From: Nitrosopumilaceae archaeon
Lineage (GTDB): Archaea > Thermoproteota > Nitrososphaeria > Nitrososphaerales > Nitrosopumilaceae
Assembly (NCBI GenBank): GCA_024644385.1
Contig: JAHELB010000014.1
Coordinates: 1-34,078, forward strand
Reading direction: 5' to 3'
DNA: 34,078 nucleotides
Shown: piece after piece, positions 1,291-18,688 of the stretch
Numbering within the stretch: position 1 is the stretch's first letter
How the letters are laid out: each line of letters begins with the position of its first letter
Position numbers and translations under genes: made by a program
Notes under the pieces: model-generated
Database searches by the model: none
Told to the model about the DNA's origin: nothing
Seen by the model: the letters and a program-made list of their open reading frames with translations, nothing else

Positions 1291-1941
1291 TTAGTCCCAC
1301 TTTGACCAAGCGGCCATCCATCTGTAGGTCCAGGTGTTTAGTTTACAACCAAGTGCTGTAAACGTAACTCCCAATACCGAGCCAGCACCAGCACCTAACG
1401 CAACAGGACTGTTATAGAACTTGCCTACCTGCGGTTCTATTGGTGTCATGTATGGTGGTAATGTTGGCCGTGGATATTTGAAGGCCGTTTCTAGTGGATC
1501 TGCCACTGTTATCAGGTTTATCATGTTGAACATCGGTAAAGACATTCCAACTAACACTCCTCCGAACAGTATCAACGAATGCTTGTTCTTTTTTGTAGCC
1601 CAATATGCCAGATCAAGCAACATTGCCGATGGCAGCCATACCGGAGTCACAATAAAGTCATATGGGTATCCTAGTGCAAACCAAGCACCTTTTGCTATCC
1701 ATGTGTATACTGTCATGATAAGAGCGTAATACGTAGCTGTTCCTGGAACGCCTGTAAAAGTTAGGTAATAAACTGCACCTACTACAAGCATTAACGTTTG
1801 AGATATAGAAAATACCGTAAACGATGTCCAAGCCCAGTCCGTATAGAAAATGTAGTCACCTGCGTTAATTGTTAACAGTGTTGAGTTAACTGCAACTACT
1901 ACTATGAATAAGTAGTGAGTACATCGTCTTAACCAGACCAT
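1291..1941 (-). CDS. amoA: Ammonia monooxygenase subunit A (archaeal)
   Basis: This is an integral-membrane subunit of the copper enzyme that oxidises ammonia to hydroxylamine at the outer face of the cytoplasmic membrane. The 216-residue protein has the usual archaeal AmoA length and starts MVWLRRCTHYLF. It has several hydrophobic helices, the segment GYPYDFIVTPVWLP near the middle and the C-terminus WMAAWSKWD characteristic of the group 1.1a family. It lies downstream of amoX on the same strand, with its own TATA element in the 100-bp gap. Several nearby open frames, such as 1421-1729 on the plus strand, are antisense shadows of it. Confidence 0.98.
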   Translation of the reverse strand: MVWLRRCTHYLFIVVVAVNSTLLTINAGDYIFYTDWAWTSFTVFSISQTLMLVVGAVYYLTFTGVPGTATYYALIMTVYTWIAKGAWFALGYPYDFIVTPVWLPSAMLLDLAYWATKKNKHSLILFGGVLVGMSLPMFNMINLITVADPLETAFKYPRPTLPPYMTPIEPQVGKFYNSPVALGAGAGSVLGVTFTALGCKLNTWTYRWMAAWSKWD

Positions 1942-2041: not shown

Positions 2042-2404
2042 CTAATGTCCAACAGTTAGGGTAATTGCTATTGTAGCGGCTGCAACAAAACCGACTGTAG
2101 CGGCAACCACACCATTACTATTCTTATTGGAACCTTCCTGCATTACTTTAACACAGAAAATATATCCAATTGCCTCAATAATGGTCAAAACAATGAATGC
2201 AAAGTGACCGCTAGGTGTTGGATATGCCCAAGGATAATAGAAATATCCTGCTGCAGTACCGCCAAAGGTAGCGCCCCATGCTGCTAAGAATGATATTGTT
2301 ATCATACCAGTCATGTTTTCGACACGTTTTCCTATCATTCGTTCTACGTCAGCGCTTGATGATCCGCCGCCACCGCCAGAACCGAATCCCTTAGGTAGAG
2401 TCAT
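2042..2404 (-). CDS. amoX: Ammonia monooxygenase-associated subunit AmoX
   Basis: The 120-residue protein lies between amoA and amoC, where the archaeal-only AmoX is always found. A glycine/serine-rich N-terminus (GSGGGGGSSS at about 8-17) precedes three hydrophobic segments at roughly 33-56, 68-86 and 99-118. AmoX copurifies with the archaeal enzyme and is counted as a structural subunit; no catalytic motif is visible. A TATA-like box 25-32 bp upstream indicates a leaderless message starting at the ATG. Confidence 0.93.
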   Translation of the reverse strand: MTLPKGFGSGGGGGSSSADVERMIGKRVENMTGMITISFLAAWGATFGGTAAGYFYYPWAYPTPSGHFAFIVLTIIEAIGYIFCVKVMQEGSNKNSNGVVAATVGFVAAATIAITLTVGH

Positions 2405-2428
2405 TCTAGATTTGTAATATTCAGAATC

Positions 2429-2436
2429 CTTTTAAA
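2429..2436 (-). promoter_or_regulatory. TATA-like box of amoX
   Basis: The minus strand reads TTTAAAAG with its centre 28 bp before the amoX ATG at 2404. This spacing puts the transcription start at the start codon. Confidence 0.55.
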
Positions 2437-2515
2437 TCTTTCTTAAATCAAGTGACCAGTACGATCTACGTTTTTAAAATAAAATAGAAAAAAGGTGTGC
2501 TTTTTTGCACTTTGT

Positions 2516-3091
2516 CTATGGAATTGATCTGCTGTACAATTTACCTTCTAAGGCCATCTTGTACATCTCTGCAACGTATGGATTCTCACCTGGAGTTTCT
2601 GCTCCTAGTTCAACTAGTCTTGCATATACTCGAACTACATATGCTAAGGCTCCCATGAATGCTACTACGACACCCATATTGAACATCCAGTGATTTGGTA
2701 CTGCAAAGATTTCCTCTACAAACCAGAAATGCCACATCTCGTTGACTCCAATTGTAAACATGGTTGCAAGATAACCTAGAATTGTCATCTTTAATCCAGT
2801 GTTTATTGAGTTATTTGGACCTCTGAGAATAGGAATTTTTCTATCATAGATTGCTGCAGCTCCCCATCCAACTGGTAATGCGATGAAGTGGGAGTATAGC
2901 CACCAATGTGCTGGTGTAAATGCGCTGTCTCTGATAGATGTTTGATGTAGAGAGCCGTCAACGAAGTTATCTACTTCAACTGAGGCTGCAATAGATCCCA
3001 AAGCTATTATCATGAGCCAGAGTTTCTTTAGTCTCTGAATCTCAACTTCTTTTGGTATTAATGCGGGCATCTGTGCCATACCTGTTAACAT
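2516..3091 (-). CDS. amoC: Ammonia monooxygenase subunit C (archaeal)
   Basis: This 191-residue membrane subunit carries the candidate copper sites. Two ligand sets can be read by spacing. D45-x3-H49-x12-H62 equals the D-x3-H-x12-H pattern of the PmoC CuC site. N117-x3-H121-x12-H134 closely resembles the N-x3-H-x13-H pattern of the PmoC CuD site. About five hydrophobic segments are visible. The copper assignments rest on my recall of the methane monooxygenase residues and are inference; the subunit identity is firm. amoC is divergent from amoB, with 242 bp between the start codons. Confidence 0.98.
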   Translation of the reverse strand: MLTGMAQMPALIPKEVEIQRLKKLWLMIIALGSIAASVEVDNFVDGSLHQTSIRDSAFTPAHWWLYSHFIALPVGWGAAAIYDRKIPILRGPNNSINTGLKMTILGYLATMFTIGVNEMWHFWFVEEIFAVPNHWMFNMGVVVAFMGALAYVVRVYARLVELGAETPGENPYVAEMYKMALEGKLYSRSIP

Positions 3092-3116
3092 GGTTTTTTA
3101 GAATATAAATGAAGAG

Positions 3117-3125
3117 TTTTAAAAA
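3117..3125 (-). promoter_or_regulatory. TATA-like box of amoC
   Basis: TTTTTAAAA on the minus strand is centred 30 bp before the amoC ATG at 3091, giving a very short or absent leader. A second AT-rich match at 3102-3109 is too close to the start codon. Confidence 0.5.
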
Positions 3126-3244
3126 TAGAATATTTCTTCAAGTTATTAGTAAAATAGAATAGATTTCTTTGAAATTTCAATCTTTTATTTTATAGTTTTT
3201 GAAATATTTATATCAATTTTTTTTTAATTTCAATGTTTAACGTT

Positions 3245-3257
3245 AATGATAATCATT
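3245..3257. promoter_or_regulatory. Fur-box-like palindrome between amoC and amoB
   Basis: AATGATAATCATT is a perfect 6-1-6 inverted repeat. It equals the 13-bp core of the bacterial Fur consensus, and over the full 19 bp (3242-3260) 15 positions match. It lies 77-89 bp before the amoB ATG and upstream of that gene's TATA box, a position that suits an operator or an activator site. A metalloregulator of the Fur superfamily is one candidate; no regulator gene is present in the window. Confidence 0.45.
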
Positions 3258-3302
3258 TGTTACCGATCGATCCTCGGCATTAAGGTAAAACATATAACGA
3301 TG

Positions 3303-3310
3303 TATATTAT
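3303..3310 (+). promoter_or_regulatory. TATA-like box of amoB
   Basis: TATATTAT is centred 27 bp before the amoB ATG at 3334, predicting a leaderless amoB transcript. Confidence 0.5.
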
Positions 3311-3333
3311 TTTTCATTCTATTAGGGATAACT

Positions 3334-3903
3334 ATGGTCGAAAAAAAGATTTTCGTATTAGGACTAACTGTTGTACTTGCCTTGGGAACACTCGGTTTTA
3401 ACTGGGTAGAATATGTTCTTCCAAGTGCAGATGCACACGGTGTCCAAGCACAACTCCAGAGTCGTTTCATCCGAATTGAAGATGAAACCTTCAACAGACA
3501 ATCCCTACAGACTGGCGAAACCCTTACACTTCAAGGTACACTAGTCAGTCTTGTAGAAAGAGACCTTAGAGGATGGCTATCCATTTTCTCAGAATCTACT
3601 AACGCAGGAAATAGATGGGAAATGTTGGCAAGAGACCCACCAGGAAATGTCTTTGATATTTCAGGGAACTCTGTCGTAGAATACTCACTATCTGCAAAAG
3701 CACTCGAAGCAGGTGTATACCACGTACATACACAACTTAATGTTGCCTCGGTAGGTCCAGGACTTGGTCCAGGTCAAACAGTAGTTGTCGAAGGGGATCC
3801 AATAATCAAACCAATACCATATACCAACATCGCATATCAATCAATCATTATCGGTGTAGGTTATGTAATCACGTTTGCAACACGACCCTGGCAAGTAATC
3901 TAA
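3334..3903 (+). CDS. amoB: Ammonia monooxygenase subunit B (archaeal)
   Basis: This 189-residue subunit has an N-terminal signal/anchor segment (about 6-24) followed by an extracytoplasmic cupredoxin-like domain and a C-terminal hydrophobic helix near 167-183. The probable signal-peptidase site SADA|HGV would make H35 the mature N-terminal residue. With H130 and H132 (YHVH) this reproduces the three histidines of the CuB site in methane monooxygenase PmoB (H33, H137, H139). The protein is less than half the bacterial length because the second cupredoxin domain is absent, as is normal for archaeal AmoB. It is transcribed away from amoC. Confidence 0.97.
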   Translation: MVEKKIFVLGLTVVLALGTLGFNWVEYVLPSADAHGVQAQLQSRFIRIEDETFNRQSLQTGETLTLQGTLVSLVERDLRGWLSIFSESTNAGNRWEMLARDPPGNVFDISGNSVVEYSLSAKALEAGVYHVHTQLNVASVGPGLGPGQTVVVEGDPIIKPIPYTNIAYQSIIIGVGYVITFATRPWQVI

Positions 3904-3904
3904 A

Positions 3905-3945
3905 AACTCCACCTTTTTCCTTTTAATTTTAATTTCTTAACTCAA
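3905..3945 (+). terminator. Possible T-rich terminator after amoB
   Basis: The run CTTTTTCCTTTTAATTTTAATTTCTT follows the amoB stop codon within a few bases. Archaeal termination commonly uses such oligo-T tracts without a hairpin. No stem-loop is visible here. Confidence 0.4.
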
Positions 3946-3996
3946 AGTTTAACCAAAAAAATCAAGTCTTATCTTGAAGGAAAAATACGATATCTT

Positions 3997-4311
3997 ATGC
4001 TAAGTTTCAAAATTAAAAAATTAGATATTTTTCAAAGTTATTTTTTTGGCAAAGTTGAATTTAGAAATGATCAATTCAAGGTAAACATACAAAATCAAAA
4101 AAGGGGCAAAGTTCTCAAATTACCATTTGAATTTAATCCAAAAAGAAATCAGCTAATTGTGAGATTAACTGGTCCAAAGGATCTCTTTGTGGAGGATTTT
4201 TTACCATATTGCGGGGAATCGGAGTGGCTCGAAATTGATTCTGATGTCATTACATATTTTCTGGCAGACAATCAAGATAAACTTGACACAATTGAGATTA
4301 TGGATAAGTAA
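3997..4311 (+). CDS. Conserved hypothetical protein of the amo neighbourhood
   Basis: A 104-residue soluble protein with no signal peptide or membrane segment and no motif I recognise. It is lysine-rich at the N-terminus (KIKKLD) and acidic at the C-terminus, with a predicted beta-rich middle (KVEFRNDQFKVNI, NQLIVRLTGPKDLFV). It lies on the same strand as amoB, 93 bp downstream, and 37 bp before the next gene, so it may share transcription with either. GAAGGAAA before the ATG could serve as a ribosome binding site. From memory, a gene of the same size occupies this place in N. maritimus, which argues that it is real. Confidence 0.7.
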   Translation: MLSFKIKKLDIFQSYFFGKVEFRNDQFKVNIQNQKRGKVLKLPFEFNPKRNQLIVRLTGPKDLFVEDFLPYCGESEWLEIDSDVITYFLADNQDKLDTIEIMDK

Positions 4312-4348
4312 GGGAAACGACTTTAAGTAATCTTCGAAGAGAATTCAT

Positions 4349-4867
4349 ATGATTTGGCCTGGGATGGGGGATCCCTACAAGAGGAAAAAAACTTTAAAAT
4401 TTCTTTTAATTACCGCAATTATCGGGATTTCAGTTGCTGCTGCTAGCACTTTTGCTCAGCAAGCTCTTAATCCAAATGACCCCCTCAAGGTCTGCATAAA
4501 TGACAGAATTACGCCGTACAAAGTAAAGGCAACATTAGAATTGATAGTAGATGGTGAAAAAGCGGAAATTCCAGCAAATATTGGATTTACAGGAGATTGC
4601 AAGAAAACCTTGTATACTTTAACCAACGATGGAACCATTTATGCTGAATGGGAGGAGGAATATCCCTTTGAAATTGGCCACTTTTTGTGGATGTGGAACT
4701 TTCCTTTGCGAGAAATGGATCAATCCAAATCTACAATTTATGTAAATGGTGAGGAATCAAGTCAATTTATCAGCCATCCATTAAAAGATGGATATTATTA
4801 CAAGGCAGAGTTCACATCAAAAGCTTATGATGAATCAAAAGATTCTGATTTCCTTCCAGAAAAGTAA
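4349..4867 (+). CDS. Membrane-anchored extracytoplasmic protein of unknown function
   Basis: The 172-residue protein starts with a short lysine-rich cytoplasmic stretch (YKRKKTLK), then one hydrophobic segment at about 17-36 ending in FAQQ, which could be a signal peptide or an anchor. The remaining ~135 residues would be outside the cell. Two cysteines, in KVCIND and TGDCKK, could form a disulfide. The region between has alternating hydrophobic residues like a small beta-sandwich, followed by an aromatic patch (FLWMWNFPL). CTTTAAGTAA about 24 bp upstream suggests a leaderless start at this ATG; an ATG five codons later is possible. Its place in the amo locus and its location make it a candidate accessory or assembly factor (inference). 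Confidence 0.7.
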   Translation: MIWPGMGDPYKRKKTLKFLLITAIIGISVAAASTFAQQALNPNDPLKVCINDRITPYKVKATLELIVDGEKAEIPANIGFTGDCKKTLYTLTNDGTIYAEWEEEYPFEIGHFLWMWNFPLREMDQSKSTIYVNGEESSQFISHPLKDGYYYKAEFTSKAYDESKDSDFLPEK

Positions 4868-4944: not shown

Positions 4945-5214
4945 TTACCAGTATTTGCCGTTGTCTGGAATAAGACCGATACCCTCTCTCTCAAAGTGTC
5001 TGTCTAATTCATCGACCCATCTCTCACGGTTGTCTTTGTAAGACCATCCGTGTACACGTAACCAGAATGAGATAATTCCCAAGAGGAATATTGAAAACAT
5101 CATGGTTCCAAAGATGTAAATCATTACATCGTAGAATAATGGATCATAGTTTGGTCCTAATTGTCCTGTTACTGATGACAGAATACTTAGGAAAGTTCCT
5201 ACGATAGGAGTCAT
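4945..5214 (-). CDS. amoY: Small membrane protein, candidate AMO subunit AmoY
   Basis: An 89-residue protein with two hydrophobic stretches: a short N-terminal one (about 4-16) and a strong helix at about 29-51 (YDVMIYIFGTMMFSIFLLG). A polar C-terminal tail with WVDELDRHFEREG follows. Position and size match one of two archaeal proteins later named AmoY and AmoZ, which copurify with ammonia monooxygenase and are co-conserved with the amo genes. I recognise the pair by synteny (the two small membrane proteins before S15); which of the two carries the name AmoY is less certain. It has its own TATA-like element and points towards the end of the 172-residue gene. Confidence 0.6.
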   Translation of the reverse strand: MTPIVGTFLSILSSVTGQLGPNYDPLFYDVMIYIFGTMMFSIFLLGIISFWLRVHGWSYKDNRERWVDELDRHFEREGIGLIPDNGKYW

Positions 5215-5329: not shown

Positions 5330-5662
5330 TTATCCTCTACCCATCGCTGCGTATTTGCCAGATCTACCTTTAAGGAAGAATGCTCCTGCGATGCCACCAA
5401 AGATTGCTGCAGAAATTACTGCCGCTCCGCCTACACCACTTGCATCAAGATAAGGTGTTCCTGATCCAGAAGCTGGGTTGGCTGCTGCGGCTTCGACTCT
5501 TCGTTGTTGAATTTCTAGTGCTTCTTCTAAGGTATATGCACCAGTTTCTCCGCCTGAGCCAACGTTGCCCATATACTGTGCAAATGCTACAGAGCTAGCA
5601 CCAAAGGTACCTACGACAAATACAGCCAGTAAGGATGCTGTTAATAGTACTTTTTTATTCAT
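5330..5662 (-). CDS. amoZ: Small exported membrane protein, candidate AMO subunit AmoZ
   Basis: A 110-residue protein with an N-terminal signal peptide (MNKKVLLTASLLAVFVVG, cleavage probably after AFA near 28). A helical glutamate-rich segment (LEEALEIQQRRVEAAAA) follows, then a single C-terminal glycine/alanine-rich membrane helix at about 77-97 and a short basic tail. This gives an extracytoplasmic N-domain held by one helix. Synteny with the neighbouring gene and S15 points to the second of the two recently added archaeal ammonia monooxygenase subunits. The Y/Z labelling follows gene order and should be checked. Confidence 0.6.
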   Translation of the reverse strand: MNKKVLLTASLLAVFVVGTFGASSVAFAQYMGNVGSGGETGAYTLEEALEIQQRRVEAAAANPASGSGTPYLDASGVGGAAVISAAIFGGIAGAFFLKGRSGKYAAMGRG

Positions 5663-17428: not shown

Positions 17429-17449
17429 AATAGGGATTTAGGAATGCAA

Positions 17450-17791
17450 ATGAAACGAATCGAGGCAACCATTCAAATCGATAAGATTGGAGCAGTTTCC
17501 GATGCACTTAAAGAGAAAGTTGGAGGTTACACCATTTTAGAAGGTAATGGACGAGGTTCCGGAAAAAGACAAACTATGAGAGCTGGGAGAGGCACAGGCA
17601 CTTTTGAGGCCGAATACAACAAAGTTGCCACAATTAGTACTATAGTTGAAGATTCTCAAGCGGAATCAGTAGTCTCTGCAATTGCCGAGGCTGCTTTTAC
17701 TGGGAATGGAGGAGATGGAATTATCGCAATTGAAAATGTTGAAGATGTTCTAAACATTGCTTCAAAAAAGAGAGGTAGTGAAGCCCTCTAA
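17450..17791 (+). CDS. Divergent PII-family signalling protein
   Basis: PII trimers sense ATP/ADP and 2-oxoglutarate and control nitrogen uptake. The 113-residue protein has the family frame: MKRIEATIQ at the N-terminus, a T-loop between about 32 and 56, KVATISTIVED as the following strand, and a B-loop TGNGGDG at 84-90 leading to IENVEDVLNI. The T-loop is unlike the canonical GFGRQKG...YRGAEY: it reads GNGRGSGKRQTMRAGRGTG, lacks the modified tyrosine, and has glycine where Q39 would bind Mg-2-oxoglutarate. The B-loop lysine is replaced by isoleucine. The start at 17450 gives the family-like N-terminus and fits the TATA spacing; 17444 would add two residues. No amt gene is adjacent. Confidence 0.85.
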   Translation: MKRIEATIQIDKIGAVSDALKEKVGGYTILEGNGRGSGKRQTMRAGRGTGTFEAEYNKVATISTIVEDSQAESVVSAIAEAAFTGNGGDGIIAIENVEDVLNIASKKRGSEAL

Positions 17792-18448: not shown

Positions 18449-18688
18449 CTATTCTTGACCCTCAATTCCCATTAGAGTTAATGTGGATCTTATTTTTGGA
18501 ATTTTTCTTACCTTCCAAGTGATAATTTCTCGGAGTTTTTCAACTTGGTCTGATTGTACTTTTGCAAGAATATCATAGGCCCCAAACGTCCCATGGACCT
18601 CTTTGATCCCTTCTATGGATTTCAATTCTAAAATTACGCTTTCTTCAGAACCTAGTTCACAGTTGATAAGAACAAATGCGATTGCCAT
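18449..18688 (-). CDS. Stand-alone Lrp/AsnC ligand-binding (RAM) domain protein
   Basis: This 79-residue protein is only the effector-binding half of an Lrp/AsnC regulator. The strand AIAFVLINCELG, helix SEESVILELKS, IEGIKEVHGTFGAYDILAKV with the glycine-rich GTFGAYD motif, and a final helix and strand form the RAM fold. There is no helix-turn-helix domain. Such single-domain proteins oligomerise and bind amino acids, and may modulate full-length Lrp proteins; they are multiplied in archaea. It is flanked by AT-rich spacers of 90 and 160 bp and appears monocistronic. Confidence 0.85.
   Translation of the reverse strand: MAIAFVLINCELGSEESVILELKSIEGIKEVHGTFGAYDILAKVQSDQVEKLREIITWKVRKIPKIRSTLTLMGIEGQE

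Follow-up and report, generated by a model that had tools for sequence, protein, structure and literature searches.

A putative twin operator at a fixed distance upstream of amoC in ammonia-oxidising archaea and in viruses carrying amoC

A large share of global nitrification is due to ammonia-oxidising archaea (AOA), and we know of no transcription factor or operator that has been established for archaeal amo genes. Sites of archaeal Lrp/AsnC (feast/famine) regulators consist of 13-bp quasi-palindromic units with an A/T centre that are used in tandem. A second point of comparison is the Fur box, whose 19-bp consensus we take to be GATAATGATAATCATTATC. A third comes from viruses, as the NtcA sites before focA and nirA in cyanophages (PMC8115048) are a case of a virus keeping a host regulator's site at a captured metabolic gene; the section of that paper on such sites does not describe archaeal viruses with amoC.

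Here we analyse a stretch of 34,078 nucleotides from a Nitrosopumilaceae archaeon (the window), in which a 242-bp region separates the divergent genes amoC and amoB (Table 1). This region holds a 26-bp element, referred to as the twin. It is like the Lrp/AsnC operators in having tandem 13-bp quasi-palindromic units with an A/T centre, and differs in its fixed distance of ~126 bp to the amoC TATA-like box, which is unlike the promoter-proximal sites known to us for that family. The likeness to the cyanophage case is that the twin also occurs at viral copies of amoC. The differences are that the viruses here are archaeal, that the twin is the only common non-coding sequence found, and that its distance from the gene is not that of the host. 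A search of the literature found no earlier description of the twin, and a mention in Ahlgren 2019, on amoC viruses, is possible.

Table 1. Features of the amo locus in the window
Feature	Position	Strand	Remarks
amoA	1291-1941	-	Pfam Archaeal_AmoA 3.1e-116; downstream of amoC on the same strand
Probable amoX	2042-2404	-	Named from position; no Pfam match
amoC	2516-3079	-	Start taken as MAQMP...; reading frame extends to 3091
amoC TATA-like box TTTATAT	3103-3109	-	-24 to -30 from ATG
Spacer, twin to amoC start codon	3080-3231	-	152 bp here; length conserved; A/T-rich with phased AA/TT tracts
Twin operator (putative)	3232-3257		Pair of 13-bp quasi-palindromic units in head-to-tail order, at 3232-3244 and 3245-3257
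Second conserved block ATCGATCCTCG	3266-3276		Between twin and amoB TATA-like box, in the 72-locus alignment
AAGGTAAAA upstream of amoB TATA-like box	3282-3290	+	Nearly invariant in the alignment
amoB TATA-like box CATATAAC	3291-3298	+	Nearly invariant in the alignment
amoB	3334-3903	+	Pfam Monooxygenase_B 1.4e-5; divergent from amoC

The paired element and the palindrome within it

The twin reads roughly AATGTTWAWCATYRATGATWAACATT, with a unit consensus of TG[A/T]TNA[A/T]CA that is repeated 13 bp apart, and as a whole it is close to an inverted repeat. In the window its right unit is AATGATAATCATT, a perfect 6-1-6 inverted repeat with a core common to the Fur box, exactly as a preliminary description of this DNA had claimed. 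Relatives were collected by amoB and 80 were kept (79-96% identity), making 81 sequences with the window. Loci L005, L014, L015, L022, L036 and L065 were left out for length and L081 because it duplicates the window, and 75 amoC-amoB regions were aligned. The twin was present in all 72 aligned rows in which amoC and amoB are divergent neighbours, which bears out the suggestion of a conserved control site in their shared region; in rows L069, L073 and L079 amoB has no neighbouring amoC, and the twin is missing at that place. The loci excluded for length also carried it (L005, L014, L015, L022 and L065), with L036 too short to read.

Four positions of the twin (G3235, C3241, G3248 and C3254) were identical in 72 of 72 aligned sites. 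The same was true of 87 of 87 sites in a wider set, A1, which combines the unique sites among the 72, numbering 69, with 18 distant sites hand-picked from 40 regions. In a less selected set of amoC regions, all four were present in the best match of 41 of 47; this set includes three regions that repeat loci of the first set (L089, L092 and L094, equal to L072, L078 and L080). The truncated locus L065, which lies outside both the 72 and A1, has an A at the first invariant G.

Judged only by how often it occurs, the palindrome does not stand out: five places in the window match it at up to two mismatches, where 6.9 are expected, and the 1.56-Mb assembly of its own genome has one exact copy. The exact 13-mer was found in the upstream regions, some of them truncated, of two of the 80 relatives, at the same place in L026 and in the left unit in L070. 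Conservation therefore failed for the 13-mer and held for the twin that encloses it, and the significance of the palindrome derives from its place within this larger element.

The count of 15 matches to the 19-bp Fur consensus at 3242-3260 was reproduced, and was also the top score on rescoring against that consensus. The naming of Fur as the regulator was not upheld. The core AATGATAATCATT is the point of likeness, common to the window's own genome, L026 and L070, whereas the twin departs from a Fur box in its consensus across the family, in its flanks, in the gene content of the genomes that carry it and in its target. Agreement at the outer consensus positions 1, 2 and 19 is limited to 2, 1 and 7 of the 72 sites, respectively, and 65 of the 72 right-hand units score 9-13 of 19. 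The window's own genome has a single, partial FUR-family match (positions 9-67, 24.0 bits, cut-off 23.1). Any FUR match at all was found in 35 of 61 family genomes, one over the cut-off in 18 and a strong one (>90 bits) in nine. Five genomes (G002, G005, G008, G009 and G027) have no FUR match, yet carry the twin, an absence that is not absolute since the assemblies are incomplete (the window's own is 96% complete).

Spacing and the partner gene

In the 72 loci the distance from the twin to the amoC start is 151-154 bp (sd 0.71), and that to amoB is 71-82 bp (sd 2.17). Locus L014 has an intergenic region ~77 bp longer, with the extra length on the amoB side only and the amoC distance the same as in other loci (140 to the aligned end). 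The amoC gene itself was read as a 191-aa open reading frame (Pfam AmoC 2.4e-14), and many relatives align only from residue 5.

The twin was also read in genomes in which the two genes lie apart. In family f1 (genomes are grouped here by f and g numbers, with inferred family and genus names), the twin stood at 152-154 bp from the start of nine of ten readable amoC copies that are separate from amoB. These were two copies in G001 and one each in G006, G015, G033, G052, G072, G336 and G339 (loci L128, L140 and L148-L154; scores 14.2 to 30.9). The exception was the second amoC copy of G050, which has no clear twin; the second copy of G144 was too short to read. G015 has no located amoB at all, and the twin is still ahead of its amoC. 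Conversely, the amoB upstream regions of the five such genomes tested (G001, G006, G033, G336 and G339; loci L090, L091, L093, L116 and L117) had no twin in five of five cases. The TATA-like box CATATAAC is kept upstream of amoB in G001, G339 and G336, all without the twin there.

Beyond the aligned loci, the best-scoring site lay 150-156 bp from amoC in 36 of the 47 amoC regions, from four families, where about one would be expected by chance. No amoC start could be placed in L091, L102 and L121, and L167 did not extend far enough to be read; on re-reading, the distance was 151 bp in G016 and 162 bp in G304, whose aligned start reads TTG. In f8, which we take as Nitrososphaeraceae and which has multiple amoC copies, the site is commonly either degenerate or an array of two to three units, at 141-167 bp. 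An array was seen on one amoC copy in G201, G223, G225, G304, G308, G188 and G216, and most extra amoC copies in f8 have no site. The best array of G225 is not at the amoC copy nearest amoB. In f2, the one genome read (G151) had no twin.

Based on the fixed distance to amoC, the retention of the twin when the genes are apart and its absence at separated amoB genes, its partner is amoC, and we regard amoC as very likely the primary target. The earlier view of amoB as the main gene served was rejected on the same grounds.

The TATA-like boxes on the two sides are both conserved. At amoC, T at -29 is present in 100% and T at -28 in 96% of the 72 loci, with 86-88% at the other positions, and the position of the box suggests that the amoC mRNA is leaderless or has a short leader. 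At amoB, CATATAAC lies ~50 bp from the twin centre. The second conserved block, ATCGATCCTCG, is perhaps another regulator site for amoB.

The spacer between the twin and amoC has a fixed length and a variable sequence, its median pairwise identity being 0.49, against 0.73 in the twin. Its AA/TT dinucleotides recur with a period of 10.5 bp. The mean per-sequence power was 2.21 for the 72 loci, while dinucleotide shuffles gave 0.78 (sd 0.085), a z of 16.8. The sequences are related rather than independent, and both z and p make the result look more certain than it is. The neighbouring periods 10 and 11 were also in excess, small excesses were seen at 12 (z 3.4) and 13 (z 2.1), and periods 8, 9, 9.5 and 11.5 showed none. 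The AA/TT phases agree across the 72 loci (R 0.91). At the median locus 1% of other windows were as periodic as the spacer, and, among A/T-rich control windows, the 95th percentile was exceeded by 31 of 72 single spacers. A set of 43 distant regions showed this same phase at lower strength (V 0.58, with p ~3e-8 on the assumption of independence, and V of 0.13-0.36 at control periods); in several g9 and f8 spacers periodicity was weak or absent although the length was kept. A/T tracts phased with the helical repeat are, judged from the letters alone, what is expected of intrinsically curved promoter-upstream DNA. An RNA leader or riboswitch in the spacer was considered and rejected, as no stable structure was found in the 15 of 72 spacers folded (mean MFE z 0.12, mononucleotide shuffles) and Rfam gave no match above gathering score in 2300-4500.

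The twin in whole genomes and at viral amoC

A search of the window's own genome with up to three mismatches returned the twin in six rows, of which four were two amo sites on both strands and the remainder two 3-mismatch places, and a regulon elsewhere in this genome was therefore rejected. At one mismatch or fewer only the two amo clusters remained, and further copies near metal genes, for which the preliminary description had advised a search, were not found in this genome, nor was an iron regulon seen. The second site belongs to an amo cluster on contig C84 (G000; loci L082 and L085), with its own twin and with identities of 97% at the start of amoA, 80% in amoX, 94% in amoC and 80% in amoB. 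This cluster is either assembly contamination or a true second operon.

Across 151 family genomes, a strict twin pattern with at most one mismatch hit 82, usually at one place each, and a reversed control pattern hit five. Among the 84 places listed, 62 are in genomes with a located amoB; 50 of these 62 lie 75-112 bp upstream of amoB, and two more (G001 and G006) lie upstream of amoC. With a sequence model, the amo site was the best match in most f1 genomes, and in some, such as G013, G016, G017 and G028, the best match was elsewhere. The model gave a best E of 0.033 or worse in families f4, f7, f9, f10, f12, f13 and f14, none of which was among the amoB matches. Of 20 secondary places, drawn from model and pattern matches in several genomes, two were upstream sites of amoC (L128 and L140); the other 18 had no amo gene adjoining, and 11 of them were inside a reading frame. 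One pair (L134 and L135), from two g9 genomes, falls within a reading frame of 395 aa that is probably one and the same gene.

Viruses with amoC are thought to infect AOA. A scan of IMG/VR with AmoC identified 24 viral loci, and the twin was ahead of amoC in all 24, at 65-66 bp before the start (L191 being counted from its own ATG), in ten distinct sequences. In five of the loci (L183-L187), which have one of these sequences in common, it was a weaker variant with units 14 bp apart and a score of only 7.4. A TATA-like box follows the viral twin after ~8 bp, by eye. Matches to amoA, amoB and amoX were absent from the 24 loci, and a major head protein was encoded upstream of amoC in six of eight loci tested. 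Ten 65-bp viral leaders, one per twin type, were no better matched to host spacers than the best of 20 shuffles. When 13 viral records were searched whole, nine matched the model, each at amoC, with two further weak places in G355; the other four are records of the variant type, whose twin falls outside the reach of the model. Scanning the entire IMG/VR collection with a strict pattern gave 13 contigs, three with the site at amoC and ten with it elsewhere.

Several different genes precede amoC in these loci (L168-L191) while the twin and its spacing are constant, by eye, as if operator and gene travelled as one cassette. The g18 genomes (L096-L101) and some viruses (L183-L187 and L188) have variant units in common, TGTTCAAC/TGTTGAAC among them, and these may reflect a variant of the regulator and may hint at the hosts of those viruses.

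Possible regulators and mode of action

The invariant G and C positions, together with viral twins that lack the spacer, indicate sequence-specific recognition, and the twin is very probably an operator for a sequence-specific protein. The best explanation overall, and in our view a probable one, is that the twin serves a single conserved DNA-binding regulator of AOA as its operator and is tied to amoC.

We envisage two dimers of a helix-turn-helix regulator binding the two 13-bp units and, once bound, activating the amoC promoter; we lean towards activation over repression. In the host, the ~126 bp from twin to TATA-like box (about 12 helical turns, kept within 1-2 bp) would be bent by the phased A/T tracts, and perhaps wrapped by an archaeal histone, such that the bound regulator comes to lie beside the basal machinery. 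In the virus, with the operator so close to its TATA-like box, a bend would not be needed. The divergent amoB promoter, on the other side of the twin, may also respond. Binding, the direction of control and bending are what we infer from these patterns. The chances that a bent or wrapped spacer is needed for function seem to us evenly balanced. We put forward tentatively, at somewhat less than even chances, the fuller proposal of a long-range, rigidly phased module, in which an activator bound about 13 helical turns away is folded onto the amoC TATA-like box by phased curved DNA or by DNA wrapped on histones. Such a module would have been kept in most sampled AOA lineages wherever amoC moved and shortened in viruses, and its host and virus copies would answer to the same regulator.

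Repression is the first alternative, and a rather unlikely one. A repressor bound to the twin would turn amoC, and amoB, off in starved cells, and the curved spacer would close a repression loop or nucleate the spread of histones. Copper limitation of N. viennensis is reported to lower amoA, amoB, amoX and amoC1, as such a repressor might, and to raise amoC3, amoC4 and amoC6 (PMC7785015). Fixed spacing and curvature would suit a loop or a wrapped repression complex too. The viral twin, however, abuts the upstream side of the TATA-like box with no overlap, a placement more usual for activators, and a repressed copy would gain the virus little.

The layout of the twin is most like archaeal Lrp/AsnC sites. 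This comparison is a possible lead, on the doubtful side. Each of 12 genomes tested has 6-20 Lrp/AsnC-family matches, and no single protein was singled out among them. It is nearly an even call that the regulator belongs to neither this family nor DtxR/MntR. A DtxR-family protein binding the twin as a 22-bp inverted repeat, and so linking amoC to manganese, iron or copper status, is unlikely. The whole twin is close to an inverted repeat and each of the 12 genomes has two or more DtxR-family genes that score over the cut-off, and through such a family the earlier idea of a metal-dependent regulator could survive the loss of its Fur part. On the other hand, the DtxR/MntR consensus sequences known to us are unlike the twin, the three-unit arrays of f8 do not fit a single palindrome, and no metal-gene regulon was found.

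A purely structural reading, by which the twin and its spacer lack a regulator of their own and only fix the place of a histone or another chromatin complex, is improbable: it would accommodate the 10.5-bp phasing and the one histone-family match in each of the 12 genomes, but not invariant G and C in units 13 bp apart or viral copies without the spacer. Finally, a Fur-type metalloregulator binding the palindrome to control amoB can be dismissed as barely credible, its 15 of 19 matches and the nine genomes with a strong Fur match being set against unconserved outer bases, a Fur match that is partial in the window's own genome and missing from several twin-bearing genomes, sites that in this genome, at up to one mismatch, are confined to the two amo clusters with no iron regulon, and a target that is amoC.

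If the twin is an operator it would be of use in several ways. It is a concrete bait for finding the amo regulator and may help to tell the main amoC copy in species with several. It offers a control site common to host and virus amoC, and its fixed spacing and phased tracts make it a test case for the part that bent DNA or histones play in controlling archaeal genes.

Some other features of the window were also recorded. The naming of amoX by position follows the gene order in PMC4010524. Two small minus-strand genes at 4945-5214 and 5330-5662 (89 and 110 aa, no Pfam match) fit AmoY and AmoZ, described as AMO subunits in PMC10030591, an assignment inferred by size and order only. Downstream of amoB is a 104-aa gene at 3997-4311 with no Pfam match, and a similar reading frame of 105 aa follows amoB in the second cluster on C84. 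About 14-15 kb from the amo genes are a P-II nitrogen-regulator gene (17444-17791) and a region that contains an AsnC ligand-binding domain (18470-18673).
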